Origin: Hanleya hanleyi
Lineage: Eukaryota > Mollusca > Polyplacophora > Lepidopleurida > Hanleyidae
DNA: 64,000 bases
Direction of reading: 5' to 3'
Assembly: GCA_036873755.1 (NCBI GenBank)
Contig: JAVTVY010019618.1
Span: forward strand, 19,440 to 83,439
The notes beneath the pieces are model-generated. The model was not told the origin of the DNA. It searched no databases and saw only the letters and a program-made list of their open reading frames with translations. A program made the translations under genes and the position numbers. Positions 3,583 through 58,439 of the stretch are shown here, piece by piece (the first letter of the stretch is position 1; the number at the start of each line of letters is the position of its first letter).

Positions 3583-4038
3583 TTTTTAGCTGTAGGCAAC
3601 GTTAAGTGGACTGACCCATGCTCAATTTGATAACCCGGAAAACATAGGGAATAGCCCTAGTTTTGAAGCATATTCATGAACAATTCATGTAAATAGTATT
3701 TAACATTTTCTTATATTCTAACTGTTTGCAGATAATCGCAATGTCTATCAAAATTTATCAAATTGGATGGATGTTGCTGTGCAAAATTCTCGACTAGAAG
3801 GCTTTTAAAGGAAATACCTATCTCTTAACCTAGGAAAGGAAGATAACCCAATAGGAAAAACAGGCAAAATGGCTGTCAAAGCCAAAAACCACCAGCGGAC
3901 ATCCTTAAGAACATTGTTGGCAGTGTGCCACATACCAGATGGGCTTACCAGATGAAATGTCAAATTTCCATCATAGCTCTCTAGATTTGTATCTAATACC
4001 GCTTATGCTGGTGCTAGGGGCCTTGTGGTAATGTCATT
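3583..4038. other. No gene seen
   Basis: AT-rich DNA without a convincing reading frame. It contains ATTTCCATCATAGCTCTC near 3965, which recurs just before the second copy of the direct repeat at 4487. Confidence 0.5.
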
Positions 4039-4662
4039 CAAGTTGCCACATGAACAGGTACAATAAAAGCGTACCTGAGATACAACACATATCACGAATC
4101 GTTTGATTTATGGTATGTGCTTTAGAATAGGTTAATCAGAAGACTATACTGTGAAGTCATGTGGCTCTGTCAGTATGTCGGCCACTTTCCACTTCCCTTA
4201 TATGCGTTGTAATTTTTACCTGTATATGGCGAGATTATGCTGGTGGACGTTTCGTCCCCGAGGCCCGCCCCCTGTACAGACCTTTTGGTCTTTGATATAT
4301 GTTGGCATTGTGGGAAGTTGATGCTGGGTCGACATCGGGCCTTACAGACTAGTCTTTTGTGTTAAATGCCGTCATTTTTATCTGACGACGACACAGCTCA
4401 CCAATCCCCAGTGTACGAGTTGTCACAGCGACACAGCTCACCAATTACCAATATACGAGTTGTCAAAGCATTTCCATCATAGCTCTCAAGTTGCCACACG
4501 AACAGGTACAATAAAAGCGTACCTGAGATACAACACATATCACGAATCGTTAGATTTTGGTATGTGCTTTAGAATAGGTTAATCAGAAGACTATACTGTG
4601 AAGTCATGTGGCTCTGTCAGTATGTCGGCACCTCTTCCCACTTCCCTTATATGCGTTGTAAT
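4039..4662 (+). repeat. Two 176-bp direct repeats separated by 271 bp
   Basis: Copies at 4039-4215 and 4487-4662 are nearly identical, from AAGTTGCCACA through CAATAAAAGCGTACCTGAGA and AGAAGACTATACTGTGAAGT to TATGCGTTGTAAT. The spacer holds two copies of GACACAGCTCACCAATTACC-like text (about 4388 and 4430). Part of the unit (the region around CAATAAAAGCG and the following GAGATAC) is shared with 43445-43640 and, inverted, with 38320-38500, so it belongs to a dispersed family. The arrangement recalls partly tandem Penelope-type ends, but no protein match is seen here. Confidence 0.75.
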
Positions 4663-4729
4663 TACTCAGTTATGATCAGTGATCTTGTCGATTTTTATCA
4701 TATAGTTTGACAAAGGCATCGACTGCAGC

Positions 4730-5040
4730 TTTGTAGAGAGAGAGAGAGGATTAAGATTTAATGTCGCGTTCGGCAATATTTCAGCTATATAGCGACGATC
4801 AAACAAAATTTCAAGTACTCGAGTCACTAACATAGTAATCCAACGTATTAAAACATACACACATTAAAACTTATGCAACAGCCCGATTTCTCTCAAATAA
4901 CCCAGGATGCAATCCTCCCTCACCCGACTAAAAAGATCTTCCAAAGTAGTCGCTCGATAAAAAGCATCTCTTACAGTCTTAAAATCTATGCATTCGATAA
5001 GAATATGTTTCACCGTGAGATCATGGCATGGAACACACCT
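4730..5040 (-). pseudogene. LINE 3' end fragment
   Basis: On the minus strand it encodes the C-terminal tail of a LINE polyprotein (RCVPCHDLTVKHILIEC, then FYRATTLEDLFSRV and YLREIGLL), followed by a 3' region containing GTCGCTATATAGCTGAAATA and GCGACATTAAA before a GA-repeat tail. The 10403-10968 copy is close in both protein and 3' region. Upstream it is joined directly to the endonuclease-RT linker of the neighbouring fragment. The whole RT and RNase H part is missing, which is a large internal deletion or a junction of two copies. Confidence 0.8.
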
Positions 5041-6246
5041 TGAGGTTTTCCAGTTGTATGGGTCACGGCGTTGGTAGTATCTGCGTTCTGCCTGTCTGAA
5101 GGCTTTTGATTGCGAAGCGAGCTCTAGTGTCATGAATGGCTTGGAGTGATGACACACCTTTTTCTTAGGAATAATCTCCTCAGTTACGTCAAGAAGAGAT
5201 GTGGTCAATGAAGCAGCCAGAGTATTTGGATCCGTCAGTATTTGGCAGGTCCCATCTTATTTGAATATCCTTCTGTTGTTCCACAACATCAATAATATCT
5301 GCCCTATGATCAGAACACAAATATGCATTTCTGTCAACACACCATCGCACTTGGCCAGGAAGATGTCGGCTAAGTGTCACGCCCGGTGAGCTATTGTTCC
5401 AATGAAAAACTCGTGTATATTCCTAAGTATTCAAAATATTAAAGCCATGGTGAATACACACATCCTCAATGAGGGATCCTTTAATTCATGATTCACCTAG
5501 ACCCCGGGTTAAGCCATGGTGAATACACACATCCTCAATGAGGGATCCTTTAATTCATGAATTCACCTAGACCCCGGGTTAAACAATTTTGTTCCCAAGT
5601 GGGTCTTCGAGCATTTAGCTCACCAGTGATGATGATAGGCTGTATCGGCAGGTTGTCAATGAGACATTCAATGTGTCTCCTTTCACGTCTATTTGGAGGA
5701 ATATACACAGACGCCACTATTGTTCGTTTACCACGAATCAGTTTCAATACGAACAGCCTCAAAATCATCAGTTTCCCGCTCCTGTCTGCGAACGAATTTA
5801 ATGTTTGGTCCAGCAATAACTGCAACACCACCTCCTCTAGTCTTATGGGCCCTATCTTTCCATTCTGGAAACATTCCAAGAGATCGTTAACATTACCTTC
5901 CTCATCTTTATGCCACGTCTCTGACAAACAGATGATTCTTCTTTAATATGTAGTCCTGCAACAGATAAGTGTTGAGGCTACACGTGTTTAGTTGCATGAT
6001 TCTCATCTCAAGACGTGATCGGAGTCTGAACAAAACAGCTCTTTAGTGTGGACACTCCCTACAGTCTGCACAGTGTGGCCCGTTGCAGTCAACACATCTT
6101 AGAGATTTTGTACAGAAGGTGTGCTGATGTCCGCCGCCGCAAATAAGACAAGTGAGAGAGTTAGTACATGCTGCAGCTACATGGTCAAAAAATTGACATT
6201 CAAAACATCTAACAATCTTGATTGCACTTTTCGCTTCTTCGTGTCT
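5041..6246 (-). pseudogene. LINE fragment: zinc-knuckle ORF1 end plus APE endonuclease
   Basis: Minus-strand reading begins with the end of ORF1, near 6225-6065: a CCHC knuckle (RCFECQFFDHVAAAC), a second one (CLICGGGHQHTFC) and a third cysteine/histidine cluster (CVDCNGPHCADC), then a stop. An APE-type endonuclease follows (about 5990-5290): MRIMQLNT, SETWHKDEEGN, SVYIPPN, ITGELNARRPTWEQN (D changed to E in the expected GDLNAR), and YLCSDHRADIIDV near the C-terminus. The linker to the RT (AFRQAERRYYQRRDPYN) ends at about 5041. Several frame changes and a 69-bp tandem duplication break the endonuclease. The gag-like knuckles plus APE layout fits the I/Jockey group of LINEs. Confidence 0.85.
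5442..5580 (+). repeat. 69/70-bp tandem duplication inside the LINE endonuclease
   Basis: AAGCCATGGTGAATACACAC to ACCCCGGGTT occurs at 5442-5510 and again at 5511-5580, differing by a one-base indel (CATGATTC versus CATGAATTC). The near identity marks a recent event. The shift breaks the old endonuclease frame. Confidence 0.95.
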
Positions 6247-6249
6247 GTG

Positions 6250-7660
6250 GATGTCGGTCCAAATTCTTCACAAGCGATAACTTCCAAATGCTTCGTCGGA
6301 TTCCGCCGAAATTTGGCATATGCATTCCTTGCGACAAGACGTTGGTTAGTATTGCAGTTCAGCAAAGTCTGCCTGAAGATGGCGCCACTATGGTTCTTTC
6401 CGTTTTTCCGTATTGCAAGCGATAACTTTGAAACGCTTTGTCGGATTCCTCCGAAATACCCTACCTTTCCGGGTAATAGATTGAAAAATGCTCATTGGAT
6501 TCTTCTCAAATTTGGTATGCATATACCATGCCATGTGAGATGTCGTTCGGAATTGAGTGTCGCCCACTTGCGCGTACAGATAGCATCACCGGGTGGCAAC
6601 TTCTAAATTTGGTTTCCGGCCAATAACTCGAGAAATGCTAAACGAATTCTTCCCAAATTTGGTATGGGTATACCTTGCCATGAGATGTTGTTTGGGATTG
6701 CGTTTCACCCACTTCTGCTTACAGGAGGTGCCACTTGGTGGCAAAATCTGAAATTTGGTATGCATATACCATGCCATGTGAGATGTCGCTTGGAATTGAG
6801 TTTCGCCCACTTGCGCGTACAGATGGCACCACCGGGTGGCAACTTCTAAATTTGGTTTCCGGCCAATAACTTGAGAACTGCTCATCGGATTCTTCTCATA
6901 TTTAGCATTCATGTACCATGCCAGGAGATGTTGCTTGAGGTTGCCCTTCGCTCACTTGCACTTACAGGTGGCGCCACCTGGTAGCAAAATCTCAAGTTTG
7001 TTTCCGGGTAATAACTCGGGAATCGCTCATGGATTCTTCCTAAAATTGGTATGAATACTCCATGACATAAGATGTCGCTTGAGATTGCGTTTCGCCCACT
7101 TGCACTTACAGGTGGTGCCACCTGGTGTCAAAATCTAAATTTGGTTTCCGGGCAATGACTTGAGGACCCTCCTGGGATTCTCCTCAAATTTAGTATGCAG
7201 ATACCATGCCACGAAATGTCCCTTGGGATTGTATTTCACTTGCTTCTTCCTACAGGTGGCGCCACCTGGTGGAAAAATCTGAAATTTATTTCCGGGCAAT
7301 AATTTGACAACTGCTCATCCAATTCTTCTCAAATTTAGTATCCATATGCCATAAAATGTCGCTTGGGATTGTGTTTCGCACATTTGCGCCTACAGGTGGC
7401 GCCACCTGGTGGCAAAATCTAAATTTGGTTTCTGGGTGATAACTCGAGGACCACTCTTCAGATTCTTCCAAAAGTCCGTATGCCGATACCATGCCATTAA
7501 ATGTCGATTGGGAATGCTTTTCACCCAATTGTACCTACAGCTGGTGACACCTGTTGGCAAAGTATCAATTTGATTTCCGGGCAATAGGTTAAGGACGCCT
7601 TCAGATTCACGTCAAATTTGGTTTGCAGATAATATGCCATGAGATGTTACATAATTACAT
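6250..7660 (+). repeat. 145-bp satellite, about ten diverged copies
   Basis: Recognisable units start with a TCAAATTTGGTATGCATA-like stretch at about 6509, 6655, 6748, 6896, 7039, 7184, 7330, 7469 and 7613. Spacings are 139-148 bp, apart from one 93-bp deleted unit; older copies extend back to about 6250. Each unit carries ATACCATGCCA, GAGATGTCGCTTGGGATTG, TTTCGCCCACTT, and ACAGGTGGCGCCACCTGGTG followed by AAATTTGGTTTCCGGGCAATAACT. The palindromic GGTGGCGCCACC core is the best conserved part. All apparent reading frames across it are repeat artefacts. Related diverged copies occur at 20040-20460. Confidence 0.85.
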
Positions 7661-11623: not shown

Positions 11624-12090
11624 AAAATTCTTGTAAGATCTTACAAGAAAGTGTCCTGTAAGATCTTGTAGGACAGTCTTGTAAGATTTTGGCACTTTTC
11701 TTGTAAGACTGTCCTACAGGATCTTACAAGATCCTACAAGACTGTCCTACAGGATCTTACAAGATCCTACAAGACTGTCCTACAGGATCTTACAAGACTG
11801 TCCTACAGGATCTTACAAGACTGTCCTACAGGATCTTACAAGATCCTACAAGACTGTCCTACAGGATCTTACAGATCGTCCTTCAGGATCTTACAAGATC
11901 CTACAAGACTGTCCTACAGGATCTTACAAGATCGTCCTTCAGGATCCTACAAGATCTTACAAGACTGTCATACAGGATCTTACAAGACTGTCCTGCAGGA
12001 TCTTACAAGATCCTACAAGACTGTCCTACAGGATCTTACAAGACCGTCCTTCAGGATCCTACAGGGTTGTCCTACAGGGCTGTCATTTGT
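11624..12090 (+). repeat. Subterminal array of 33-bp and 23-bp modules
   Basis: About a dozen modules alternate AAGATCCTAC, AAGACTGTCC and TACAGGATCTT. The full unit is 33 bp, and a 10-bp part is dropped in several units to give 23 bp. The modules are nested palindromes (AAGATC...GATCTT), so single strands could fold extensively. A shorter inverted counterpart lies at about 15095-15285. Confidence 0.9.
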
Positions 12091-20460: not shown

Positions 20461-20754
20461 GTTTTATGAAGAATCCGTTAAATCATTTTAATTTCATTAA
20501 AATGAAATGAAATGACCTTCTTGACATACTTAAACAAGAATTTTATTTGACGTTCGCTATATAGCTTAAATATTTCTTTGGAGAAATGTATGCATGTACG
20601 GTACGGCTAATCCACCAAGTTATTTATATGACCATAGTACAGATATGAATGAATTAATGATTGAGTAGTAATGAGCAATGACTGTAAACCAATCACTCAA
20701 TGTGCTATACCTGCAAATGGGAATAATAAAGCACATCAGAATTTGAAAAACGTG

Positions 20755-20977
20755 ATTGCCGGACAGTAGTAGGCATTTAGAGCATCGACAGATCATCGTT
20801 GAAGACATCTCTGTGCAGACGGCTGCCCAAGCACGACGTTGGGTTGGCATTGCTTTTGAGATTGAGAGCCGAAAAACCACTGGAAATCTAACAGAATTTC
20901 TCCAATTGAGACGCTGTGTTTCTCAGGACTTGCATTTCCAAACATTTTATTTGAAGTTGTCTTCTCCTTTCAGATGA
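20755..20977 (-). pseudogene. Older partial copy of the RdRP last exon
   Basis: Minus-strand text matches the RdRP last exon over the SSVSIGEILIGFLKFFGSQS region (here HSVSIGEILLDFQWFFGSQS) and the following MVFGQSLAL region, with clear divergence. It lies in the same orientation as the gene. A SINE-like tail at 21070-21135 separates it from the next partial copy. Confidence 0.8.
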
Positions 20978-21069
20978 TATTTCAGTGAGACAGATAAAAT
21001 GGCAGCATTAAATCTCCTCTATTACAAGTAGGTACCCTCGCACCCTGCCCTCCCTTCCCTTCCCCGTCG

Positions 21070-21135
21070 TGATGTAGCTGAAAAATGTTGAAAACGACGT
21101 TAAACCCTATTCACTTACTCACTCATTCACTCCCT
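21070..21135 (+). mobile_element. SINE-like tail
   Basis: GATGTAGCTGAAAAATGTTG followed by AAAACGACGTTAAACCCTA and (TCACT)-type repeats resembles the tails at 2622-2692 and 26665-26738. It lies between two partial RdRP copies and appears to have split one duplicated unit. Confidence 0.55.
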
Positions 21136-21136
21136 T

Positions 21137-21810
21137 TCAGATCGTAGAGTCCAGCATTGCCCATGAGCTCCAAATGATCGGGTCCGAGATAAACCCCTTT
21201 CTAAAAGCAAACTGTAAAATAAGAAGAACGAGCTTCTGAAATATCAGCAGAAGTGACCCTAGTGCTAACGACTGCCCAAACACCATGTAGGATTTGCCTT
21301 GCTTTAGAGATTGAGAACCGAAAAACTTCAGGAACCCTATAATGATTTCTCCAATTGAGACACTGCTTTTCTCAGATCTAACATTATCAAACAATGTATT
21401 TGACATGGTCTTCTCCGCTTGTGATTGTGGAGTCTCGCATTGCCCCTGAGCTTCCAATATGCGGGTCTGAGATAAACCCATTGCTAAAAGCAAATTGTAA
21501 AATAAGCATTACGAGTTCCTGAAATGTCAGCATGTTCTGCTTTTTGGCCTTTGAGACAAGACCCTCGCCCTCTGCCCGCCTCAGGATAAACACAACTAAT
21601 GGGATCAAGCCCCGATTCAGAATGTATGATCAAGCATTCGGAATTACGCAACACAAGTCCCTTCGCTACGTTCTCTCATCTCTATGTATACGTAATGCAT
21701 TGCTTTCCTTATTTTATCAAGAGGCATACATTACTTCAGGGAAGCTTACAGCTCTCTTGTCTTCAGTACTGTATGATACCACATACCAAGAAACATATTA
21801 GATGCTATGC
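21137..21810 (-). pseudogene. Recent partial tandem copies of the RdRP last exon
   Basis: Minus-strand order: a diverged segment matching the exon around 23300-23050 (21810-21610); then NMLTFQELVMLILQFAFSNG and FISDPHIGSSGAM (21545-21430); AEKTMSNTLFDNVRSEKSSV and GFLKFFGSQSLKQGKSYMVF (21415-21255); then again FQKLVLLILQFAFRKG and FISDPIIWSSWAM (21245-21140). In the gene the order is the FQELV block followed by the AEKTM block, once. Here the unit starts a second time, with its second half at 20755-20977. Frame changes prevent use as a protein. The high similarity to the gene shows that parts of the duplication are young. Confidence 0.9.
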
Positions 21811-22361: not shown

Positions 22362-24185
22362 TCAGCGTAAAATATCCTGAAGAATATTCGGAGTAGCCAG
22401 TAGGTCCTCAAGATCCAACATCGTGGTGCAATTTCCAGCCGCCCAAAGTCGCCCAGAGGGATATTTCCCAGCACTGTCTCTGCGGATGGTGACTCCCGTT
22501 AAATTGTCTCCGAACATTTCCAGCAGAACGCCCTCTAAATATGAACAAAAACGCCGAATGCTTATCCACTCGTTGTTTGGAATGACTACACTTATCTCCT
22601 CAAGTTGTGATTCCAGAGATCCAGTAATCAGTTCCTGGACATCACCAGTGACTGCCAGACAGTGGTAAGCATTTAGAGCAACGGAGGATAATCGTTGAAG
22701 GGACCTCAGTGCTAACGACTGCCCAAACACCATGTAGGATTTGCCTTGTTTGAGAGATTGAGAGCCGAAAAACTTCAGGAATCCTATCAGGATTTCTCCA
22801 ATTGAGACACTGCTTTTCTCAGATCTAACATTTTCAAACAATGTATTTGACATGGTCTTCTCCGCTAAGATCGTGGAGATCAGCATCGCCCCTGAGCTTC
22901 CAATATGCGGGTCAGAGATAAACCCCTTGCTAAAAGCAAATTGTAAAATAAGCATTACGAGTTCCTGAAATGTCAGCATGTTCTGCTTTCGGGCCATTGA
23001 AACAAGACCCTCGCCCTCTGCCCATCTAAGGAGGAACTGAACTAATGGGATCAAGCCGTTATTCTGGTATAGGGAATTCAAGATCACACATTCTTGACGT
23101 GTGCGAGTTTCTGACTTGAATATGAATTGTCCAACACAGGTATCGGAGCTACGTTTTCTCATCTCTATGTATCCGTCATGCATTGCTTTCGCTATTTTAT
23201 CAATAGGCCTACTTGGCTTCAGGTGTTGACCAGTCGGCAATGAATATACCGAACTACCGTTAACATGGCCTAGTACATCAGAGACAATCCAAGGAAAGCT
23301 TAAAGCTCTCGTGTCTTCTGCACTGTATGACACCACGTACCAAGCAGACGCCTTGGCTATAACTTCTTCTGGCAGAGTTTTCGTGTTTAATTTCTCCTCT
23401 CCTCCAAACTCAACGAAAAACATCGAACGAAACCGCTTCCATATTTCTTGCATCTGTAACTTCACGAGATGAATAGTTTCGAACTTTTCATCTCGCTGAT
23501 TGATTCTCAAATGTAGACTTCTGATACACCCTGAGACAAGTTCTGCTTCTGATTTGATCCCGTATCGCCCCATCAATTGCCGGATGGTGTTGCTGTATCG
23601 TTCGTGGGTCTTTCGAGCTTCCGGCAAATAGAGCTCATGTCGTCTGTGGATAAGGTTTTCATTGATGGACAATAAGTTTATACTCCTTGAATTCTCTTTA
23701 TCTTCAAAACGCAAAAGGTTATCAAGTCTACGGCTGACATCATACATTTCGCCAAGTGCTCTCTTTGATTTGTAAACTGTGTTTTGTCCCTGCTTGCCCA
23801 TGAAATTTGGGTACACCTGGGGTCGTTCATCATCATCTATTTCTGGGCAGTTTCCGGTTTTTGGAAAATCAACAGCCTCGGAATGTTTCTCTGCCAGAAT
23901 TTGACAAACAGGAGAAAAAATGCCTTCTTCTTCGCTGTCGGCAAATGCTTTGTGTGCATTGGAAATCTGACCCAGTCGATCGTTTTGTATATATTCAGTG
24001 ACAAACGTGATGATGTCGTTAAACTCGACCTGTCTGCCAAGGCTCTCTTTCACCGGAGGCAAGTAATTCATTGCTTCCGCATTACATACTGGGAAATAAC
24101 GCAAGAAATCTGGAAGCCAAGTGACAAAGTATTCGTCCCCGTCAAGGTCCGATCCTGCCATTTCATTCGGATGCGGCCTTGGTCC
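22362..24185 (-). CDS. RdRP coding exon 5 with catalytic DLDGD
   Basis: The acceptor TTTTCATAG precedes GGACCAAGG. The exon begins GPRPHPNEMAGSDLDGDE and stays open for 607 codons to a TGA at 22362. The aspartates of DLDGD bind the catalytic metal in this family. The long tail contains a coiled, leucine-rich region (LTFQELVMLILQFAF) and ends NILQDILR. Parts of this exon are duplicated downstream at 20755-21810. Confidence 0.93.
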   Translation of the reverse strand, partial: GPRPHPNEMAGSDLDGDEYFVTWLPDFLRYFPVCNAEAMNYLPPVKESLGRQVEFNDIITFVTEYIQNDRLGQISNAHKAFADSEEEGIFSPVCQILAEKHSEAVDFPKTGNCPEIDDDERPQVYPNFMGKQGQNTVYKSKRALGEMYDVSRRLDNLLRFEDKENSRSINLLSINENLIHRRHELYLPEARKTHERYSNTIRQLMGRYGIKSEAELVSGCIRSLHLRINQRDEKFETIHLVKLQMQEIWKRFRSMFFVEFGGEEKLNTKTLPEEVIAKASAWYVVSYSAEDTRALSFPWIVSDVLGHVNGSSVYSLPTGQHLKPSRPIDKIAKAMHDGYIEMRKRSSDTCVGQFIFKSETRTRQECVILNSLYQNNGLIPLVQFLLRWAEGEGLVSMARKQNMLTFQELVMLILQFAFSKGFISDPHIGSSGAMLISTILAEKTMSNTLFENVRSEKSSVSIGEILIGFLKFFGSQSLKQGKSYMVFGQSLALRSLQRLSSVALNAYHCLAVTGDVQELITGSLESQLEEISVVIPNNEWISIRRFCSYLEGVLLEMFGDNLTGVTIRRDSAGKYPSGRLWAAGNCTTMLDLEDLLATPNILQDILR

Positions 24186-27100
24186 CTATGAAAAGGAATG
24201 ACAATAAAATCGGTTGGTCCCGATTAAAGAGAATTAAAATTAATTTCATATGAAGAAATAAATGTTCTCGAAGGTTGTCTTCAAAAGTCACAAATATGAC
24301 TATTTTGAAAAAATATAATGATAGATGTAACGTTGAATCCATAAAAGATGAAACCCATAGCTAAACCTTCGGAGAATGGTTATCATACCTCAGACGGGAA
24401 GACGATACAGTCGACCATGTGGTGCAGTTTTGGGACGTCTATAGCTTCGAACCTCCGGACATCTCCCTGATGCACAGCCGGGAACTTTGTCACAATAACG
24501 TATCCTTTCACAACTTCACACGAAGCACCAGGGTCTCTCATGCTCTTTGAATACTGAACGAATACCTCATTATGTTGAAGCGATTTTGTTTCGTCCATCG
24601 CCCCAAACATATTTCTGCCGTGGGTGGAAGGGATTTCGATCCTGGCCTTGTCCCGCATGTCTCCTGAAGTTATAGTGACAAAAACAGGTACACAGTATGC
24701 ATATATCGACTAATCAATTACCTGGCTACTCCAGGCAGTTGTGTAACATGAATGGACTAGAAGCTTGGTCAGATCCAGTATTTAGTAGCCAGTCGTCGTT
24801 CATAAATTGGTGAAATATGTGAGAGGTGGGAAAAGTTGACGTCTGGCGAATAAAACTCAACCATATGACTCAGACACATCGATAAAAACTCATCCATAAT
24901 CAGAATATCATATTCATGCTATAATATTAGTACCAAAACCCATAGGCATAAGATAAAACGTATATACCGGTGTATATATAAACACAAGCTAGATTCTTGC
25001 TAGAGGAAAGCGGTCAAAAGTTTCCACTGATGCCAGCAAAACGTGATTCTCCTATTGTCAATTCCACATCATTGAATATTGTTTTTTTCAAATGACATTC
25101 CTACAGTTCCTGATCATTTTTTAATAGTGATTTATATGAGAACCCTGGCGATATTGTAGTATACGATGTTCAAACAGTCACTAACTCTGGGTTAAGCAGA
25201 ATTAGGCACAACTACGAAGCGTATCGCCAGAGATCCTGCACGCTACATTAGTATCACTAGTATCATAAAACTTTAGAACCTTGGAGTGAAGACACTTGAT
25301 ATAATAACCGTGTCAAACCAGTTTCTGCAATACTGGTTTGTCACGTTGATTTAAATCGTCACGTTTATACAGGATCTAGCAAATGTCACAAAGCGAGATA
25401 AGTATATCTGACTATCCGGAAAGAGAGGGTAAACAATGTCGAAATTGTAAGCGCCTCTGTTGTCGGCGCGAGAATAAACACTTTTTAACCCTCGGCCTAT
25501 CAGGATGCGGGTTCCTGTCGTCGGCACGTACGTCCAGTCGTCCGGTCGCCCGGTCAGTCGTCCGTCCGGTCGTCAATATTTCTTGTGAACGCTCCAGAAG
25601 CCAACCATTGCTTCTAGAGACTTTAATTTTGGTATACATGATTGCTGGGTGGTCAGCCACAAGTCTATGAATTTGGATTGAGTCAGTGAATATGATTTAA
25701 CGTCGCTTTCAACACTATGTCGGTCATATCACGACGTTTGGTTTCCATTCCTTTTCACACCCGGAAACCACACGGATAGTGTCCTATTCCTTTTAAAACC
25801 ATGGATCCCGTGGAAGGGGTGCATTGCGATGATTTTTTTGGTTTCCTTAGCAATGTCACTTAAAATGTCCATATGACGACGTGAACAAGACAAAAGCCTA
25901 ACCGTTACAGCTAGAGATTTCAAATTTGAGCATTGTTGGGTGGTCAACCACAAGCCTGTCGAATTTGGGTATATTACGATGGTTTTTGTGGTTTCCATGG
26001 CAACGTCACTCAATGTCCGTATGACGACGTGAACACGATAAACGCCCAACTGTTGCAGCTAGTGATTTCAAATTTGCTTTGTTGCATTGTTGGGTGGTCA
26101 ACCACAAGCCTCTCGAATTCGGGTACATTGCGATGTTTTTTGTGGTTTCCAGTGCAACGTCATAGAAAACGTCCATATATGACATTGTGAACGCGATAGA
26201 AGCTAAACTGTTCCAGCTAGAGACTTCAAATCTGGTATACCGAATTGATGGGTGCTCATTCACAAGCCTGTTGAATTAGACTACATCGCAATGATTTTTG
26301 TGGTTTTCATAGCAACATCACGCAAAATGTCAATATTACGACGTGAATCGACGTGAGCCAAACCGTTGCTTCTAGCGACAAATTTGATATACGCGATTGC
26401 TGCAACTTCACGCAAAATGTTCATATGACGATGTGAACAAGATAGAAGCCAAACTGTTGCAGTTAGAGACTTCTTCAAGATCTTCATGGTGCTAATATGA
26501 AGAGTCACAATCAAAGCGTGACTGAGATACATCAGCCCCCACGTGGGTGAGCAGCATGAGTTTTGTACCATGTCTGTTGCCACGAGGAGAAGATTAATTT
26601 CTTCTACATGATGACTGTATATGGATAGTCACACATGTCCAGCTAATCATATCATAGTTAGTTATATCGTCGCTATATGGCCGAAATAGCGCTGAACGCG
26701 ACGTAAACCCTAACTCACTCACTCACTCACTCATTCTCTAGATGACTGCTTGACAACGAATATTATGGATTAGGAATACTGATCAGCGATACGGATTTGA
26801 TATTTTTGGAACATCATGATGTCTTGGCGAAATCATTGAAAACTGGTGATCGCTTCTCTTTTGCAGGAAACTAGCCTATGTTTATGTATACTATGATTGT
26901 CATTTTGAATTTGGTGCTAATACTGTTATATGGAATATGGAATAGGTCTTTGGATTATGGACGCGGATATTCTTTAATGGACGACGGCTGAATTATGAAT
27001 GACGGACCAGACGCTTGTAATTCAAATTTGGTACACAGGATTGGTTGGTCAACCACAAGCCTATTGAATATGGGTATATGTGATGATTTTTGTGGTTTCC

Positions 27101-30100
27101 ATGGCAATGTCACGCAAAATGACCTATGATGATGTGAACGCGATAGAAGCCAAACCGTTTGGTACGCATAATGGTTGGGTGGTCATACACTAGTTAGCCT
27201 ATCAAATTTGGGTAGGAGAGTGAGGACACATGGGACAGGGGAGACTTGGGACACCCTTTATTTGGTACCCTTGTGAAAGCCAATGAAGACTGAGCTTACA
27301 TGTGCTGTTTGGTTTTGATACCGCCCCCCACATTTACCATTCTGGTGTTTCCAGGAATCATTGAAGTGTGTAACTCTTTCTTTTTGTGTTTTTGGAGGTC
27401 ACGCCCATTTGTTTATACGGTGCAATATTAGGTATATGATGCCGATATTTTGGCACAGGATTGTCTGTTATATAGATCACACATGACACTGACAGAATTT
27501 GTGAGGACATGAACAGTTGAGCGAAAAATCACCATTTTGCTAAGTTGGGTCCCCTGGGGAGAGTTGGGACATAATGTCTCCCCTACGGTGTCCCATCTCT
27601 CCCTGCACTTTTGAATAATATTGCGATGTGTATGGTATTATTTTCTGTCGGCAAAGTGATAATTTTTTAGCAAGTTCGCATTTTCATGTTAAGTCATTAT
27701 TTTCTTCAAATAAAAAAGTTAGGGTATTGATTGCATTCAAGTCGTTACATCGGTTGTCCCATAATTCCAACTCCTTGTCCCATGTCTCCCGACACTGTCC
27801 CAAGTCACCCCCAAAATACACTGAAATGAAATCGTCTCCTCATTATAACACACTCGGTTTGATGTCTTACACACTGTGTCATTGCATGGGTATTCTTCCC
27901 AGGTTGGTGCATGGCACGCATTGATTTGTACAACTAAATACTTTGGACCGGATGTGAAATAATGTGACGTCACAGAAATAGTGTCCCAGGTCTCCCCACT
28001 CTTCCCTACATCGCGATGAGTTTCGTGGTTTTCATGGCAACGTCTCACAAATTGTCCATATGAGGTTGTGATTGCGATAGAATCCAAACCATTCCAGCCA
28101 CAGACTTCAAATTTCGCACACGGGATTTTTGGGTACTCAACCACAAGACAATTGAATTTGGATACATTGCAATGATTTTTGTAGTTTCCTTGGCAACGTC
28201 ACGTAAAATGTCCACATGATGATGTAAACGGGATGGAAGCCAAACCATTCTAGCTAGAGACTTTGAATTTAATCAAAGTATCACATCTCATCCAATGCAT
28301 CCAACATCCCACACTGAATTCCAACATAGCTTAATCTTTAACAAGTCACTGTTAAAGCATCTTCTGCATTCAGCCAAATCTTCCAGGTTTTTACACATGC
28401 ATTTTCCATTCATTGTCTACCAATATATAGTGATATATATATTTAGGTGCTATCTCATGTTTACTTTCATATCAGGAGTCTTGGGTCTAAACATGATTTT
28501 CCTTTTAGCTTATCGCTGGCTTCCTTCAAATATTAACGTCCAAGTCTCCCCCGAATGACGTTTCTTCATCACGCGTTTTTAACAGAGCAACTATAGGGCC
28601 GCAATGTAGATATCAACCATAATGTGTAACTCAGGATAAATAAAGTTTCTATCTATCTACTGACGTTGCTGAAAGCTACAAATAGATGGGCAATTCCAGA
28701 GGTGTATCAACGCTTCTTAAATCTTTCAATCAGACAGTAAGTAACGCAATACCATTCAACTCTAACCAGTCCATTATCATAAATTATCCTCTTCAACAAA
28801 TATAATGACACAACTAAGCACAGATGACTTGACAACAATTTTTGGGCGTTTTCGTTCGTAGTAGACTGCAAGCTCGTTCAATCGGACCTGAAGACAAACT
28901 GATCGGTATGTTTGCGTTTTCAAAACAATTGCTGTCTTCTTGATATACACGTATGCCTGACCATTTCTTGCTTAAAGTTTTCACAATAATTATACGATAA
29001 TAACAGCTTACTCATGTGCATTCCCATTACAGCATGAAGCATTTGACTGAAAAATGGATCAGTCGTCAGTTGAATTCCACTGTCCACCAGTTTCCCGTAC
29101 TTTATACCAATGCTTGCTCGTTTTCCCAACGCATCTGCGGCTTTTCGTTCGTGGATGAACATATCCACGAGCTCTTCGATCATGTCTTCCTGAAGACGAA
29201 GAAACACGGAGTTGGGCACGCCAAGTTGGTCCATCAGCATGACGGCTTGGTGATTCAGGTATAACTGACCTTTGGAGCAAAACACAACACAAGAATTTAC
29301 ATACTTCATCAAGTTAAAACAAGTTGAACATATATACCCGGCAATCTGCCTTATCCTGTTCTTCACATAAAGTTTCGAATGGTGAGAAAAATGTATATTC
29401 AATGAAGCATGGAATTTGTTTGACAATAAACAGATACCATATATGCTGAACAACGGTTAACGATCAAGATAAATTGTCGGGAGTATTTTCACCACAGAAC
29501 CACATGTGTCTCTCGTTTAGTAATACGTCACCAAAAACATTCCTTGACATTATCGGGGTAGTAAGTAAATATCAGACATTGTGAAGCCGGACCGTTGATG
29601 CGTCGAAACACATTCATATTATTCAGCAAGAGAAGATTACGTCTTTGTGAAATGTCATCATTTGCCATACATACCATTGAAGAATAAGGATAAGGAGACT
29701 TCCAACTTACACGGCTGAGAAACTTTCACTATCTCAAGACGCTGGTGGTCACTTTCGAATTTTCGCATACTCTTTCTAATGATGAGGGAGTCCCCGTCCA
29801 AAGTAGGGTAAAGTGACACAGTCCCCTTACATCCGCCATATCTGATCTGATACACTGAGTGTACTCGCGTTCGACCGGTTTCTTTGGATATCTATGGAGA
29901 ACATCTCTAATCAATCACATTTTGACTTTTCACATATTAAGATATTTAATCTTGTATGTAGCAACTGTCATTTGATGACAACATCTTACATAAAATGATA
30001 TAGTAGCTCTTAGTGACTCATCCCCGTGGGTATGTTGTGGTTTTTAAGTTAAGATCCAACTAAGTTATGCCTCGAACAAGAAATTGTTGACGAACGAACG

Positions 30101-32704
30101 ACCGGACGAAAGGCAGGCGGGACGAACGGTGTGCGAGGATAAGATTTTTCTCTGAACGGATTGTCCCCCTGTATGTTTCAACCCACACCCACTCACCCTA
30201 AATCTAACCATAATCCAAGCCATATATGCTTCTATGCTCTAATTCAGGAACGGGAGTCAGATTACCCTGAACTTGAGCTCAGCTGTCCCCAACATTTGAT
30301 ATGGAAGAGGGACAGGAGATAGGGTGACCGATGAACCTTTTTATACTGGACGTCAAGACTTACATGGCGACGACGATAGACTGAGAGGTAAAAGAAATTA
30401 TATGGGTACCTGATCCATGGGTGATCTCCTGCTTCAAATAGACCTCAATATTCCTTCGAAGTAGGTTCTCATTTGCAAATTGTCCGGTAATGAGTGAGTG
30501 AGTCAGTGAGTTAGTCAGTCACTCCATGCGAATCTTTCGTTGGCAAAATAAGGAGAACCTTGATTTTTGACACGAAGGTGCATTGTTACCAGCAAGTTCT
30601 GAGCTGACCTACTTTTGATGAAAATCTCTGGTGATTATTGATGAAAATCACTGGTGATTCTGACTTGGGCTGTGCCAATCTTAATATAGGCAGGATTTCA
30701 ACTTGGGCGGGGGAGGGGGTCCAAGAGTTCAGTGCGAGTCGCAGTCCTAATGCCTACCCTACTTCGTAGGTCCTGTGACCGTTAGTCACACTGCTCATGT
30801 TTTCAAAAGAACGGTGTTTATTTCGTGATTTCGTGAATGGTTGCCGAGGCATGGCAGGCCAAAGTTACATTTATGATAAAACAATTCCTGTATGTAATAG
30901 GTGGAACGTTAGATATTTTAACCACTGTAATGAGTTTTGTGAAATTTTGCATACGGGTATTTTTGACAATTATACATCCATTGAATGCAACACAGCTGTC
31001 ATTCTTCTACAAATAAGCCCAAATAGCAGTTACAATCCCAATCATGTTTGAACAGTTTTATTTTTCTACATAGGGCAATATTAGTGATGATGAGGAAATA
31101 GAAATATAGGAATCTTAACAAGTTTTAAAAATACTCCTTTCTCATACCTTCAGGGATTACAGCTCATAACCATGGATTGAATTTCATATCAGTTTCATAT
31201 ATTTCAAGAAGTTTTGTCACATTTATTGATGTACTACAGGACTCACCTTTTTGGCCAGAGATAAGGATATCCTGCCCGTTCCATCGGAGAATGTATAACC
31301 ATTCTTCTTTACATCCTTATCGTCAGTTGTCACTTTCTTTCCATCTGCCTCAACTGTAATGCTATCTTCTGAAGTCGAGAAACACTGTCCCATCCTGGAC
31401 ACGTATGTCGCCGCACAGCCGATCCGACTCAAGTCCCCCATCCAATCCCTTATGTCTTCCGCCTCGTATCCTTCGTCGTCTTCAGCATAAAACCAGACCC
31501 CGTGGTCCCGAAGTTGGCTGTTCGAGCAAGCCAGGAATTCAAAATGCCTATCACATGCAAAGATGCCATCTTCAAGGCGGCGTTCTATTGTTCTTCGATA
31601 GAAGTCATCCTCTGCACGAACGTTTGACAGTCTCTGCATGTCGTCATCTCGGAAAGACACTCTCAGACAGAAATCTGGGTCGTATTTACGGAGGATCCGG
31701 TTATCAAACATGATATGTGGAGGGTAGAAAATACATCTGGTTGGGGTGGCCACAAGTCGTCGTACTTTTTTGAGCTTGGGAAGTAGTATATCGCACGTTT
31801 TATAATCATCAGACATGAACAACTTGAGGGCTTGTCTCAGATTGATGAACCTGCGTGTCTCTACCACGTCAGCTATTTGGTACAAAGACTCCTCCAGCTG
31901 GGTTGGTTCTTTCTGAGAATACGACGCCATGTCCTCCAAGAAGGAGTTGTCCCGAGCTATAGTCTCTGACACCAGCAAGCCTTTTGAGATAAGGACTTGA
32001 AAAGCCCAGCGTTCCGCAAAACTGCTAAGATACATATGTGAAAGTTTAGAGATTTGGCTATCTTTGGTTGTCTTCTCAAAATGCACTGCAACATTTGTAA
32101 AGTTCACCCGAAATCCCAAAGACTGGAGTCTGCTCAGGATGCCATCCACTCCGGGGAATTGCGACTGTGGATCCGTTGCTCTTATTCTCAGTCTCATGCA
32201 GTTGGAACCGCCAAGTATATCAGCTGAACAGGTCATGAATTCAATCATTCTCTTGAAAGGAAACCGATAGTTATCGCCATCAATGTTACTGATATCCGGG
32301 TGAACTATATGCCTAAGCCTTAATGGCAAAGCTTCGCTAACTCTTGGTGCCAACAAAAGCAGAAAGTAGATGTCAACAGACGCTTGATTTTTACTAACTA
32401 TAATATCTGTGGCAATGTCTCTATTCCAGAGCAACTCGAACTTACCAACATTACCTGCAAATTCAAAAAATATGTAGAACTTTTTGCTGTCATACTCAAA
32501 CCGAGCCTTGCATCTACCTGTATCGAAAATCGGAAGCCTTCCACTGGATTTGCTGTTGTAATAACCGTAGAAGGAGTTTGGGTGAAGAAAGGAGCCCAAT
32601 GAGAAATCTTCAATTGGAATGTCACTATGGAGGGCTATTCTCTGAGTAGACGTGTATATGGCGGTATCATGGGTACTCAGCCAAAATGGAAGATTTGTTG
32701 TCAT
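22362..32704 (-). CDS. Cellular RNA-dependent RNA polymerase (RNAi type), five coding exons
   Basis: Cellular RdRPs make double-stranded RNA from RNA templates in small-RNA pathways of plants, fungi, nematodes and some other animals. Proposed exons are 32704-31247, 29891-29711, 29269-29012, 24663-24389 and 24185-22362. The joined length is 3,996 nt, an open frame of 1,331 residues plus stop, and every junction keeps phase with GT...AG borders. The RdRP domain runs from SDGTGRISLSLAKK (about 473-486) through YQIRYGGCKGTV (500-511), LYLNHQAVML, ARIEIPSTHGRNMFG and QGDVRRFEAIDVP to the DLDGD catalytic motif (737-741). About 590 residues follow the motif. Family members are usually 1,100-1,700 residues, so the length fits. 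The start is the ATG at 32704, next to an in-frame TGA; a longer original N-terminus is likely. A viral polymerase is excluded by the DxDGD type and the introns. Confidence 0.9.
24389..24663 (-). CDS. RdRP coding exon 4
   Basis: The acceptor ATAACTTCAG precedes GAGACATG. The peptide contains KARIEIPSTHGRNMFGAMDE, EVFVQYS, GYVIVTKFPAVHQGDVR and HHMVDCIVFP, all classic RdRP blocks just before the catalytic motif. The donor TCTGAG|GTATGA ends at phase 0. The preceding intron (24664-29011) is 4.35 kb and full of repeats. Confidence 0.92.
24664..25189. other. Intron sequence with a dispersed-repeat trace
   Basis: Part of RdRP intron 3. A stretch near 24820-24890 (GAGGTGGGAAAAGTTGACGT, then CTGGCGAATAAAACTCAACC) resembles 38330-38385 and, inverted, 43560-43625. 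Confidence 0.5.
25190..25480 (-). mobile_element. Penelope-like element 3' fragment
   Basis: The minus strand matches the RT thumb region of the Penelope-like copies. It runs from TACAATTTCGACATTGTTTA (equivalent of YNFDIVN) through GTGACATTTGCTAGATCC and GTGACGATTTAAATCAACGT to the 3' text near GCTTAACCCAGAG. It is short and frame-broken. It lies in RdRP intron 3, in the same orientation as the gene. Confidence 0.75.
25590..26475 (+). repeat. Satellite of about 155-170 bp in RdRP intron 3, first part
   Basis: Diverged units contain TTGGGTGGTCAACCACAAGC, then GGGTA(C/T)ATT(G/A)CGATG, GTGGTTTCCATGGCAACGTC, CATATGACGACGTGAAC and AAACTGTTGCAGCTAGAGAC. Landmarks lie at about 25648, 25937, 26093 and 26250. 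The array continues at 27020-27212 and 28009-28270, after insertions. Its many small reading frames are artefacts. Confidence 0.8.
25676..25740 (-). mobile_element. SINE-like tail, minus orientation
   Basis: TGAGTCAGTGAATATGATTT followed by AACGTCGCTTTCAACA and CGGTCATATCACGACG is the reverse complement of the SINE-like tail family. The same form occurs at 33143-33205. Confidence 0.5.
26471..27018 (+). mobile_element. Penelope-like 3' end inserted in the satellite and split by a SINE
   Basis: TTCAAGATCTTCATGGTGCT to GTGACTGAGATAC (26474-26540) and ATTCTCTAGATGAC to ACGCTTGTA (26734-27018) are together the 3' untranslated end seen at 53155-53498 and 58735-59034. The satellite monomer is cut at its GAGACTTC/TTCAAATTTGG position and resumes at 27020, so the insertion came after the array formed. 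Orientation is opposite to the fragment at 25190. Confidence 0.75.
26541..26738 (+). mobile_element. SINE-like element, possibly full length (about 198 bp)
   Basis: It interrupts the Penelope 3' end between GAGATACATC and ATTCTCTAG, so both borders can be read from the empty-site version at 53205-53225. The head begins CCCCCACGTGGGTGAGCAGC. The body has TAGTTAGTTATATCGTCGCT and CTGAACGCGACGTAAACCCT, and the tail is (CACT)n. No clear tRNA B box is visible in the head, so its promoter class is unknown. Confidence 0.7.
27019..27212 (+). repeat. Intron satellite, continued
   Basis: Units resume with TTCAAATTTGGTACAC, TTGGTCAACCACAAGCC and GTGGTTTCCATGGCAATGTC. The last unit is cut at TTTGGGTA by the MITE-like insertion. 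Confidence 0.75.
27213..28008. mobile_element. 0.8-kb MITE-like element with TA target duplication
   Basis: The flanking satellite monomer normally reads TTTGGGTACATTGCGATG. Here TTTGGGTA is followed by about 792 bp and then TACATCGCGATGAG, so the host unit resumes after a duplicated TA. The ends are imperfect inverted repeats: left GGAGAGTGAGGACACATGGG; right, reverse-complemented, GGGAAGAGTGGGGAGACCTG. Further copies of the (T)GGGACA/TGTCCCA motif lie inside. TA duplication fits the Tc1/mariner/pogo group. No transposase is present. Confidence 0.75.
28009..28270 (+). repeat. Intron satellite, last part
   Basis: It continues the interrupted monomer (GTGGTTTTCATGGCAACGTC) and holds one more unit with GTAGTTTCCTTGGCAACGTC, ending near 28270. 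Confidence 0.75.
28271..29011. other. Rest of RdRP intron 3
   Basis: No gene is seen. AATAAAGTTTCTATCTATCTA at about 28637-28658 resembles the short-repeat 3' tail of a LINE; a similar AAATAAATATCTATCTCT lies at about 50056. The source element is not identifiable. Confidence 0.4.
29012..29269 (-). CDS. RdRP coding exon 3
   Basis: The acceptor GCTCCAAAG precedes GTCAG. The split codon with the previous exon gives Cys. The peptide contains LYLNHQAVMLMDQLGVPNSV and FLRLQEDM, the usual (Y/L)LN-Q-I-LL---GV motif. The donor CATGA|GTAAGC leaves phase 1. Confidence 0.9.
29711..29891 (-). CDS. RdRP coding exon 2
   Basis: The acceptor TTCTCCATAG precedes ATATCC (phase 0). The peptide includes VYQIRYGGCKGT, LIIRKSMRKFES and LEIVKVSQP, which correspond to the conserved (F/Y)Q(I/V)R(Y/F)GG-KG and KF blocks of the family. 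The donor CCGT|GTAAGT leaves phase 1. Confidence 0.9.
29892..31246. other. RdRP intron 1
   Basis: A 1,355-bp intron between AAG|GTGAGT and the acceptor at 29892. A GAACGAACGACCGGACGAAA tract (about 30090-30130) and GTGAGTGAGTGAGTCAGTGA near 30490 are simple repeats. No extra exon was recognised, and the phases of the neighbouring exons need none. Confidence 0.5.
31247..32704 (-). CDS. RdRP coding exon 1 (residues 1-486)
   Basis: The exon opens with MTTNLPFWLSTHDTAIYTST and ends at SLAKK with the donor AAG|GTGAGT (intron begins at 31246), phase 0. It covers the N-terminal region common to cellular RdRPs, including HPDISNIDGDN, ARDNSFLEDMASYSQ and RVSFRDDDMQRL (the conserved V(R/S)F-D/E-D stretch), and then the start of the catalytic domain. 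Confidence 0.9.
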
Positions 32705-33029
32705 TCATTTTGTAGCCACATCAGTTAACCATAGTGTATGCCATGCTCTGTCAGCGATGCTGTCAACGGTAACTTCAATGTCAGATGAAACATCAGACGG
32801 TATATTGGTCACTCTATGCAATTTCACATCCTTGTACCGTAAAAGTTCACAGAGATATGATTCACCGAACAGTCTCTCTACTATGCTACTTGGATCTCTT
32901 TCTATTGTCTTCTGATTGTGCAAGGAATCATCATGAAACACCCTCATGAACAACTTCAGCGATTTGCTGGCCATCACCTATTTCGTCCAATAGTTCAATG
33001 ACAGAATCGAAGCAAACTAGACAGCACCT
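32705..33029 (-). pseudogene. Probable former RdRP N-terminal coding segment
   Basis: The acceptor TATTTGTTTCAG precedes AGGTGCTGT at 33029, and the sequence runs without interruption into coding exon 1. The first frame reads CFDSVIELLDEIGDGQQIAE and then stops near 32932. From there a second frame, the one used by exon 1, is open: HDDSLHNQKTIERDPSSIVE, ESYLCELLRYKDV, HTLWLTDVATK. It ends in TGA at 32707-32705, immediately before the ATG of exon 1. The composition looks coding. So either the N-terminus has decayed, an unseen splice removes the defects, or the sequence carries errors. Confidence 0.55.
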
Positions 33030-33142
33030 CTGAAACAAATACATATTATATTAGGTATTGTCTTGTAATTCCTAGTAAGCGAGTCACGTGATTGGAAGTT
33101 TTCCCATTTTGTATCGGATAGTCATGAGTAGAAACACTAAAG

Positions 33143-33205
33143 GGTGAGTGAATATGATTTAACCTCGATTTCAACAATATTTCAGTCATATCGCAACAAA
33201 ACAAC
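33143..33205 (-). mobile_element. SINE-like tail, minus orientation
   Basis: GTGAGTGAATATGATTTAAC followed by CTCGATTTCAACAATATTTC and AGTCATATCGCAAC is the reverse complement of the tail family. It lies just upstream of the RdRP segment. Confidence 0.5.
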
Positions 33206-48472: not shown

Positions 48473-49118
48473 TTGCAAACTAATGATATTGAGGCATATA
48501 ATTTGCTACTTTTTCCAGTCCGTCTGCAACGTCAGACGGAAACTAGGTAATATCTCGCTACCTCTAGGGCTCAGTGATGTGAGACTTCTAGCACAACAGC
48601 CTAATCTAGTACCTTGATCTATACGACCGGCTTTAATTTGGTTTGCGGCCATATCACAGTGAAAGAGAGGTATGTAGGGCTATGCACGAGACTACATACC
48701 AGTTCGCCATTACAGAATTATTAGCATAAAATTAGGAGCGACTAGTACTAGTACTTTATAAAGTCACCAAAGTTTCCTTATAGTTAACTAAGACACACAA
48801 TACACTCCAACTCACTTTATGTCATCCGTCGTAGAAAACGCGCCCATTAGCGGCTATCACACAACCTGGGACATAATAATACCCCCTGGTTGCCTGTAGA
48901 CATGTCTTGTAATCGCAAAACCAGACCGGTTGTATCATCATACTACAGCAGACAAGTAACTCCACGTCAAGACGAATATCGATTCGGTTATACACAACCT
49001 ACATTCACACTTCACTGGCATTGAAATGCTGTGCACCGTAAGAATGAGCGTGGCTAAAGACTCGAAATAGAAATTGGGATTTCCCATGGAATGTCCATTT
49101 ATAGGCCTAGGCCATATT
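48473..49118. other. No gene seen
   Basis: No repeats or frames of note, apart from a GTCCGTCTGCAACGTCAGACGGA hairpin near 48520 that resembles the one at 15577-15600. Confidence 0.4.
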
Positions 49119-49405
49119 AACTACATCCACACGACAATAAAAATAACTACATCCACACGACAATACAAATAACTACATCCACACGACAATACAAATAACT
49201 GCATCCACACGACAATACAAATAACTACATCCACACGACAATACAAATAACTACATCCACACGACAATACAAATAACTACATCCACACGACAATACAAAT
49301 AACTACATCCACACGACAATACAAATAACTACATCCACACGACAATACAAATAACTACATCCACATGACAATACAAATAACTACATCCACACGACAATAC
49401 AAATA
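49119..49405 (+). repeat. 26-bp minisatellite, 11 copies
   Basis: The unit is AACTACATCCACACGACAAT plus ACAAAT. Only single-base changes occur between copies (AATAAAAAT in the first; CTGCATCC; CCACATGAC). The near-perfect order marks recent expansion. There are no spacers, so it is not a CRISPR-like array. Confidence 0.97.
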
Positions 49406-49779
49406 AGGAAGAAATGTTGAAAAATGACATCAGAGACAAAATTAAATGACGTATTTCTTTGAAATATATAATTTATTTCTTAATCAGCCTAATTTATTTA
49501 AATATTCAATAAAAGAAGGGTTCAGAGTTGATACATAGTGCTTAATCTCCATTTTTTTTGCATTTTTCGTGCTGTTAAGGAAGCGTCTCCACAAACATCG
49601 TCTTTCATGGGAACGATAGCGACAATTCGCATTCTCGCCATATACCTTATAGGTGTATGTAATATTTGTATTTTTATGGGTTTTTGTTTTGTTTTTGTTT
49701 TTGTTTTTTTTTGTTTTTTTTGTTTTTTGTTTTTTTTTCATGTAATATAATTGTTATACATGTAATTCTTCTCGTACTG
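49406..49779. other. No gene seen
   Basis: Contains a T-rich (TTTTG)n tract at about 49680-49738; the rest has no feature. Confidence 0.5.
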
Positions 49780-50889: not shown

Positions 50890-51500
50890 ATATCCATACA
50901 TGTGCAGCATATGTTTGGGTATGTCCACATATAAAAAAAATTCATGTATGGGTAATGTATGAAAAATTGCCTTTCTCATACTTGCCCATACAAGATGTAA
51001 GGTAGGGTTCACACATGTTTGGCACATGTATGGGTATGTCCATATAGCAACAGATCATGTATGGGAAATGTATGGAAAGTTGATTTCCCCATACATGCTG
51101 ATACAAGATGTATGGTAGGGTCCATACATGTCAGGCATATGTATGGGTATGTCCATATATCAACAGATCATGTATGGGAAATGCATGAAAAGTTGATTTG
51201 CCCATACATGACCGTACAAGATGTATGCTAGCATACATACACGTATGCCATATGTATTGACATGCCCATATATCAAAAGAGCCTGTATGGGTAATGTATC
51301 AAAATTTGCGCTCCCCATACATGCTCATAGAATACGTATGGTAGAGTCCATACATGTGTGGCACATGTATGGGGTAGTACAATTATGAAAAGATCCTGGA
51401 TTGTGTACGGGAAATTAATTTCCCGATACATGCCCATACAAGTCTCATGCGCATCCATACATGTTTGACATATGTATGGGCACATCCATATACCCTGTAC
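50890..51500 (+). repeat. 112-bp satellite rich in CATACATG/CATGTATG palindromes
   Basis: About five and a half units, with landmarks (TGGGTATGTCCATAT or a diverged form) near 50918, 51031, 51142, 51255, 51368 and 51474. Each unit contains GATCATGTATGGGAAATGTA, TTTCCCCATACATG and AGGGTCCATACATGT. The units are internally self-complementary. Confidence 0.85.
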
Positions 51501-55402: not shown

Positions 55403-56924
55403 TTAATCAGTTTTCTTGAACACAGATGCTATTAATGAACTTAGATGGTCAATGAAGTCCTGATGAGGGATTGTGGTATAGAGAGTCGAGAAATCCCATG
55501 TGGATACATGTCTATACGGTATATGACCTTTAGCATCAAGTTCTTCCGTAAGACCTTTTGAGTTTTTCAATATCCACATACATTCAACGCCAGCGTTTTT
55601 AGAAATAGTGGCGCAATACCTTTCCCAAAATGCTTTTACCTCCTGAAGGGCCCTCGTCAACAGGGTTGAAAGAAGCTTGGTGGTGCAGCTTCTAGAACCA
55701 GCTATGTATCTAGCTTTGTATGGTGATTTATGCATTTTGGGAGTCCAGTATACTTTTGGTATATCGTTATGTTTGGTTGGAAGACAAATACCTCTTTCCT
55801 CGAGAAACGTTTTGTGATTGTTAAATAAATCTTCCAGAGTAAATGCAGTTTGAGAGTAAGTAGACGTATTTGATGACGATATGTTTACACTCAATTCTTC
55901 AACCAGCACCTGGAAATAGTAATATTTACATATGAATATTCTATTATTTGGAGCTTTGTCTGCTGGGACTATGACGAATTTGCTAGAACTTCTTGCGAAT
56001 TGGGGCTTCTCAGTACTTGTTTTGCTTGGGGAAGGGTACTTCTGTCAATATAGCGGATTGTTTCAACGACCTTGCTCTTGGTGAGTTCCAGCCAATCATC
56101 GAGTACTGTAGGTTCAATTTTTTCTCGCTTAGACCAATCAATAACGTACTGTTCCAAAGCAGACAGGACTATCTTCTGGTCGGCCTTCAGATTTATATTT
56201 CTCGGCTCTCTATATTTAGGTCCCTTCATCAGGAGTAATCTTAGGTCCTTATCACTAACCACATCATGGTCACCAGTCACAACATGTTTGCATGGTGTAT
56301 AGATAAAGTTCGACGATTCACAATCACAACTATAGCCCCCCGACGTGTATAAGTTCCAGTCAAACTCCTTGACAGCATTAGAGTAATTGAATATTTGGTG
56401 GCTATAGATTTAGAATACTTATATGAAATGCAAGGAGGTTCTGTGAACTTAAAATAGTTTGGTACAGTATTGCGTACCTCTGGATCATTCAGGATTCGAG
56501 GTAAATTAATAATGTCCAGTCCTTTAACTAAGTAGTTGAGTTTCAAGAAAAGCCGATCATGGGATGTTTCGATTATGTTCACTGGACGATACAACCGAAA
56601 ATACGCTATATCTTGACATACTTTAGAGATTTTGGGTGGTATTATATTTCCTGAGGATGCAGATTGTTGTATATCTCTGGCTATATGATTTAAAGCTCTC
56701 AGAGGTAACGCATACAGAACTGTACGTAAGATAAGTGTACTATTGGGTGTGTTAGTTAAACACACTAAGTAATTTAAAGTGATATGATCGTGAATCATCG
56801 CACTATTAAACTTTCTCCAGCCATGGCTGCGATGTCTCTGTTGATTTGGGTTTAAATAGCTGGGTAATATTGGATATATTTGAACGGCGGTTTGTAACAT
56901 TGCCGAACCCACTGACATTATCAT
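55403..56924 (-). pseudogene. Penelope-like linker and RT fingers/palm (broken)
   Basis: Three frames make up this part. First, a 215-codon stretch with TLILRTVLYALPLRALNHIA and YLVKGLDIINLP (56924-56395). Second, YSCDCESSNF, VVTGDHD and LLLMKGPKYREPRNIN (about 56395-55990), the typical pre-RT block. Third, KFVIVPADKAPNN, PKVYWTPKMHKSPYKARYIA, ECMWILKNSKGLTEEL and the motif A stretch STWDFSTLYTTIPHQDF (about 55985-55403). Motif A keeps its Asp. The frame ends at a stop after IASVFKKTD. Confidence 0.88.
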
Positions 56925-57504: not shown

Positions 57505-58439
57505 AAATATCTTTCTATGCTAGTTTTCGGGTAATCATGATAAAGCATGGGCTGCGCTTTCACTCTCGCGGGTTCCAAATATCTTCGAGCCAAAGATCAA
57601 GGATTCGTTCCGGATAGAAGGAAATACCCCACTTCCTTATCTTTTCATATCTTCTTCGAGTAGGTCGATTTGGGTTATTGTCTCAGTCGGGCAGAATGAA
57701 GGTGGCGGCGCAGCCCCACTCCATTCACTTGTGCTCAGCAATAAATATATGACCACAAATATATTCTGACATAATATCTAAATTATTTCTCATCCAAACA
57801 TGATATTTAAATCTTTATTCTCTCTACCCTCCATATACCACCTCTTTCGTCTCTGTAAATACCAGCACGCGTGGTCTTTTAGGATCAACGTCAAAGGCAC
57901 AAAGGTGAATGCAAACTACCGTCTTGATGAAAACTTTCTATTGGCAATATGCAGCAAAATCATCAGCACTCTCTGTGCATAACGTTGTCACACTTAGACA
58001 AGTTTTTGGAAATCGAGGGGAAAAGCAGAGAGTAAATAATTTTCCGAAGTGAATGTGGTTCCAATTACCATACATTACCGACCACATTCGTATGCTGTAT
58101 GCCTTAGCCGTAGTATCTAGCGAAGGCAGAAAGTTTATTATCCACCGTTTGCAGAGTAGATTCGAATTAAAGTTAACCTATATGTTTATCCTGTAATCAG
58201 TCACTATATATATGCTTCAGTTATCGGTCCCAATGGTGCAGCATTTCTGTCAATCTATCCCAAAGTGTTTATCATGGGTTTCATATGAAGCTACATGTAT
58301 CTATCGAACCTACTCCCTCTGAAATATTTAGTATTTTTTCAAGCAATATTCTGCAATGTCTTTATATAGGTTATAATAGCCAATGATACGGATTTTACGA
58401 TAGGGCGACGGTTAGCATTAAAACATCACACGGTCTCTC
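57505..58439. other. 5' flank of the Penelope-like element; no gene seen
   Basis: It may include the 5' untranslated part of the element, but no second copy in the window allows its start to be set. No host frame is supported. Confidence 0.4.

Follow-up and report, generated by a model that had tools for sequence, protein, structure and literature searches.

A cellular RNA-dependent RNA polymerase gene from Hanleya hanleyi with a conserved catalytic core and an in-frame stop in its probable N-terminal domain

RNA-dependent RNA polymerases (RdRPs) have been lost many times in animals, and where they are kept their job is often unclear (PMC6396948, PMC10062562). In nematodes, RdRPs serve RNAi, but for amphioxus RdRPs the same study found no evidence of RNAi amplification, and its authors suggest a different role (PMC6396948). 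A tick RdRP is needed for small RNAs of about 22 nt in tick cells (PMC10062562). Earlier work has reported RdRPs from Bivalvia, Brachiopoda and non-vertebrate deuterostomes (PMC6085071), and RNAi in Lophotrochozoa is the subject of PMC11114477. For plant RDR2, residues 1-100 are described as a strand-helix-strand-strand-helix-strand domain with RNA binding shown (PMC8713982). We recognised no paper in the literature searched as being about the present locus, which does not in itself establish its absence from print. The presence of an RdRP in an animal is thus not new, and the locus adds one member to a known family: as judged from its motifs and alignments, the gene encodes a cellular RdRP of the metazoan type whose catalytic core is intact and for which RNA synthesis is predicted.

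The gene lies on the minus strand of the window (the whole stretch of 64,000 nucleotides that was analysed). The first-pass annotation had described five minus-strand exons whose phases and GT...AG borders give a 1,331-residue frame, and each of these particulars proved exact. Exon 1 (31247-32704), the start of which is retained from that reading, specifies the PH-like region and the first part of the RdRP domain; exon 2 (29711-29891), exon 3 (29012-29269) and exon 4 (24389-24663) are placed by profile alignment and the joined frame; and exon 5 (22362-24185) codes for the DLDGD motif and the C-terminal part, with the terminal stop at its end. All four introns, of 1,355, 441, 4,348 and 203 bases, have GT...AG borders, and the joined exons amount to 1,331 codons plus one terminal stop, with no internal stop and no frame break, in a window that contains no N. 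Because all four exon junctions sit within ungapped stretches of the alignment (to a profile of 15 deuterostome relatives), the splice sites are backed independently of RNA data. Between 22361 and 21000, downstream of the gene, neither of the polyadenylation signals AATAAA and ATTAAA was found. A 54-base repeat occurs in two copies, 85% alike, one just upstream of the gene (33144-33197) and the other in the third intron (25682-25735); this intron, between exons 3 and 4, also contains diverged copies of a tandem unit of about 158 bases (25817-28271), some of them apart from the array.

Outside the RdRP region, we compared 110 open frames at least 75 residues long (113 listed, minus three frames of one tandem array) with Pfam. 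With an E-value limit of 0.01 they matched seven families, none of which marks a clear host gene. One of these frames, which a pattern search did not locate, has a PHD-finger match (E 4.8e-05). On the minus strand at 55406-57519 lies a run of open frames that looks like a decayed Penelope-like element. One of them (56809-57519) matches a GIY-YIG nuclease domain at 21.8 bits, slightly short of the cut-off; a search with this frame gave two distant proteins among 48 candidates, which point to no taxon of the host. Fragments of a non-LTR retroelement lie at 1995-5942, also on the minus strand, with sub-cut-off matches to an endonuclease (PF14529, 25.2 bits) and a reverse transcriptase (PF00078, 20.1 bits). 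Tandem arrays were found at 49118-49406 (unit of 26 bases), 11705-12078 (56), 6504-7586 (about 144) and 50893-51492 (113).

The family assignment rests first on a Pfam search of the joined translation, a check that the first-pass annotation had itself proposed: the RdRP family PF05183 was matched at 563.1 bits (E 1e-168, cut-off 23.8). The match covers positions 2-580 of the 582 in the profile, which means that the domain is present as a whole in the 1,331-residue chain. The main RdRP motif blocks, including DLDGD, are present as that annotation had claimed. Only two further Pfam families appeared in the translation, DUF7752 (30.1 bits against a cut-off of 29) and the metazoan RdRP PH-like domain PF25359 (23.5 bits, just below the cut-off of 27); a structure model of exon 1 gave PH-type structural matches over residues 111-299. 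The DLDGD metal-binding motif is aligned with DLDGD in all 28 relatives shown. The two-barrel RdRP family to which the query belongs also holds plant RDR and fungal QDE-1, and nematode EGO-1 is a member as well. Seven distinct sequences of solved structures match the query, Arabidopsis RDR2 being the best (E 1.4e-93). A chance similarity or a viral RdRP was considered and is ruled out by the PF05183 E-value of 1e-168 together with collinearity with animal proteins.

In a large protein database, 178 of 7,996 candidates scored were matches at E 0.001, the best 18 of which are hemichordate, amphioxus, brittle-star and crinoid proteins with 33-39% identity over 73-99% of the query. An Argopecten protein stands at row 87 among the 120 matches listed, with 42% identity over 42%; Ixodes proteins are likewise among the matches listed, tick RdRP1 and its relatives belonging, like the query, to the animal RdRP family. 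A profile search returned 41 matches among 7,990 candidates, Pecten maximus included. The deuterostome RdRPs (Ptychodera flava, Saccoglossus kowalevskii, Glandiceps, Branchiostoma, Amphiura filiformis and Anneissia japonica) share with the query the domain order PF25359-PF05183 (PF25359 being just below its cut-off in the query), in some cases with PF24934, as well as the DLDGD block. However, their N-terminal domain is uninterrupted in full-length records, unlike the probable one of the query, which stands on its own long branch (0.93).

This branch length comes from a tree of 32 rows (the query and 31 selected relatives; 1,028 columns), a phylogeny with other animal RdRPs having also been suggested at the outset. 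The query falls inside a bilaterian set of 24 rows (99/99), but it does not fall with the scallops, whose two proteins form a clade with P0034 (100/98) apart from it. The scallop proteins are P0124 of Pecten maximus and P0087 of Argopecten irradians; a tree constrained to unite the query with them is worse by 83.8 log-likelihood units (p-AU 7.2e-06), and one that adds P0034 to this group is worse by 45.3 units (p 0.009). Thus, although P0124 and P0087 belong to the PF05183 family as the query does, they are not its sister group, and the host inferred in the first-pass annotation, a probable mollusc, is not reflected in a grouping with scallop RdRPs, which the p-AU of 7.2e-06 rejects for the two mollusc proteins compared, both from scallops. 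Since the mollusc sample consists of these two proteins, the query may belong to another molluscan paralogue. In the best tree the query joins the ecdysozoans at a support of only 47/52, and a position with the deuterostomes is not rejected (p 0.39); an earlier 50-row tree placed it with deuterostomes at an SH-aLRT of 93, below the star threshold.

Selection appears to have kept the catalytic chain. The query retains 94 of 98 near-invariant residues, a term used here for positions at which 95% or more of the other sequences in the alignment agree, and one further column is a gap; retention in 28 relatives ranges from 0.90 to 1.00. Two decayed partial copies of exon 5 lie directly downstream on the same strand, copy 1 (21250-21790) with deletions, a frameshift and stops, and copy 2 (20752-21249) abutting it. 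Computed from ungapped blocks only (500 and 335 bases, with two codon pairs per copy dropped for a stop in the copy), the comparison of the gene with copy 1 gave a dS of 0.24, a dN of 0.09 and a dN/dS of 0.37 (bootstrap 0.20-0.62; 162 codon pairs), while that with copy 2 gave a dN/dS of 0.64 (0.35-1.14; 108 pairs), a range that includes 1. The residues kept and the ratio against copy 1 do not fit a long neutral decay of the core. Given that 4.45% of random substitutions yield a stop, a chain of 1,421 codons that drifted neutrally by about 0.12 per site, which is half of dS, would be expected to gather about 23 stops, whereas one is seen. Constraint must therefore have acted on the gene during most of the period after the first duplication. 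The single candidate disabling mutation, a stop that is recent or tolerated, lies in the probable N-terminal domain, and none lies in the five exons.

The stop is an in-frame TGA (32705-32707, minus strand) directly before the ATG at 32704. Upstream of it, the reading frame of exon 1 stays open for 89 codons (32708-32974, minus strand), which are probably the native 5' coding part, specifying an N-terminal RRM-like domain. The gene had been called open, which is true of the 1,331-residue frame but probably not of the gene as a whole, in which the TGA at 32707-32705 appears to interrupt the domain before the PH-like region. We consider it most likely that the native start is the ATG at 32974, which has G at both -3 and +4, rather than that at 32704, which by inspection has T at -3, a weak start context by the usual rule. 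A splice-acceptor-like sequence, TTTGTTTCAG (33030-33039, minus strand; a sequence match only), ends 55 bases before the upstream ATG and is a possible end of a 5'-UTR intron.

In the codon model of the gene, the upstream 89 codons score 3.8, as compared with a mean of 4.2 (range -6.1 to 14.1) for 63 left-out windows of the gene and a mean of -7.1 (sd 4.9) for 20,388 noncoding windows, 0.9% of which reach the score of the upstream stretch; among 1,783 overlapping noncoding windows free of stops, 5% do so. An open run of this length was found before 253 of 14,562 noncoding points. Of the two shifted frames, one scores 3.9 with 12 stops and the other -8.7 with eight. In the relatives (38 of 44 rows used), 61-129 residues precede the matching WL position. 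Similarity of the upstream residues to the N termini of 38 relatives fell short of significance (z 2.06, a value equalled or bettered by 12 of 500 shuffles), as did that to 14 deuterostome relatives (z 1.38, 35 of 500); in the controls, the wrong frames gave z values of 2.70 and -0.10 and four positive controls gave 6.3-18.4. The upstream part adds only 1.5-1.8 bits to the profile score.

The modelled fold of the upstream part suggests an RRM-like domain. Read across the stop, residues 1-101 were modelled with 44 relatives as strand-helix-strand-strand-helix-strand, a result that the relatives may have steered; modelled without relatives, the same fold was obtained at low confidence (57.2 for the best model, 34-38 for the other four). 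Foldseek, run on the N-terminal model alone, gave 0.011 as its lowest E-value and hence no match within the limit of 0.001, and the structural alignment with RDR2 begins at model residue 112, thus leaving the N-terminal domain outside the superposition on the RDR2 RRM. That RRM is intact in the plant enzymes (Arabidopsis 7roz/7eu0, maize 7w82/7w84), whereas the corresponding region of the query is interrupted. The idea that the stop replaces a conserved tryptophan was dropped as unproven, since the alignments disagree: in two of them the stop falls in a mostly tryptophan column (15 relatives with the stop as X; 39 W and 4 F among 43 relatives with the stop read as W), and in four others it falls outside this column, three of these having W in one of 44.

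Taken as a whole, these observations point to a long-selected RdRP gene with its native start at 32974, whose N-terminal RRM-like domain is now broken by an in-frame stop, a reading to which we assign a probability of roughly 0.58. An assembly error or rare allele would give the same picture as a damaging stop, and we regard it as an unlikely but serious alternative that the TGA is such an error or a minor allele, most copies being open from 32974 and specifying a full-length working RdRP. One stop in 1,421 codons and a core otherwise undamaged (94 of 98 residues; dN/dS 0.37 against copy 1) would suit this well, although the window contains no N and the gene shows no other break of frame. Slightly less probable again is a working gene whose natural start is at 32704, or whose N terminus is encoded by a further exon upstream that has escaped notice, the 89-codon stretch being untranslated or open by chance; the whole catalytic core and the lack of significant upstream similarity to relatives agree with this, but relatives have a domain in the corresponding position, the 89 codons are open and coding-like in the same frame right up to the stop, and the ATG at 32704 has the weak context noted above. 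Regular read-through or recoding, which would yield a long form that includes the RRM-like domain beside a short one that lacks it, is highly improbable, for although the sequence before and after the stop is coding-like in this frame and constraint lasted after the tandem duplication, there is no specific sign of it, with zero Rfam matches at gathering threshold in the 64-kb window; we give equally little credence to the stop being a stable, used switch in an animal lineage on a long branch beside the deuterostome and ecdysozoan enzymes.

If the gene is indeed one that selection maintained and that was recently truncated or damaged by a stop in its RRM-like domain, the full-length protein would have used its DLDGD metal site to make double-stranded RNA from single-stranded templates, with the upstream 89 codons supplying the native N-terminal domain that, by analogy with plant RDR2, would guide the template in. 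As sequenced, the gene would give either a polymerase lacking nearly all of this domain, through restart at the ATG beside the stop, or no useful product, and we infer a loss or reduction of RdRP function. A role of the locus in small-RNA pathways is a guess. With its core kept and its template-guiding domain interrupted, the gene could show the loss of an RdRP while it is still under way; alternatively, the locus could be a natural test of the need for the N-terminal domain.
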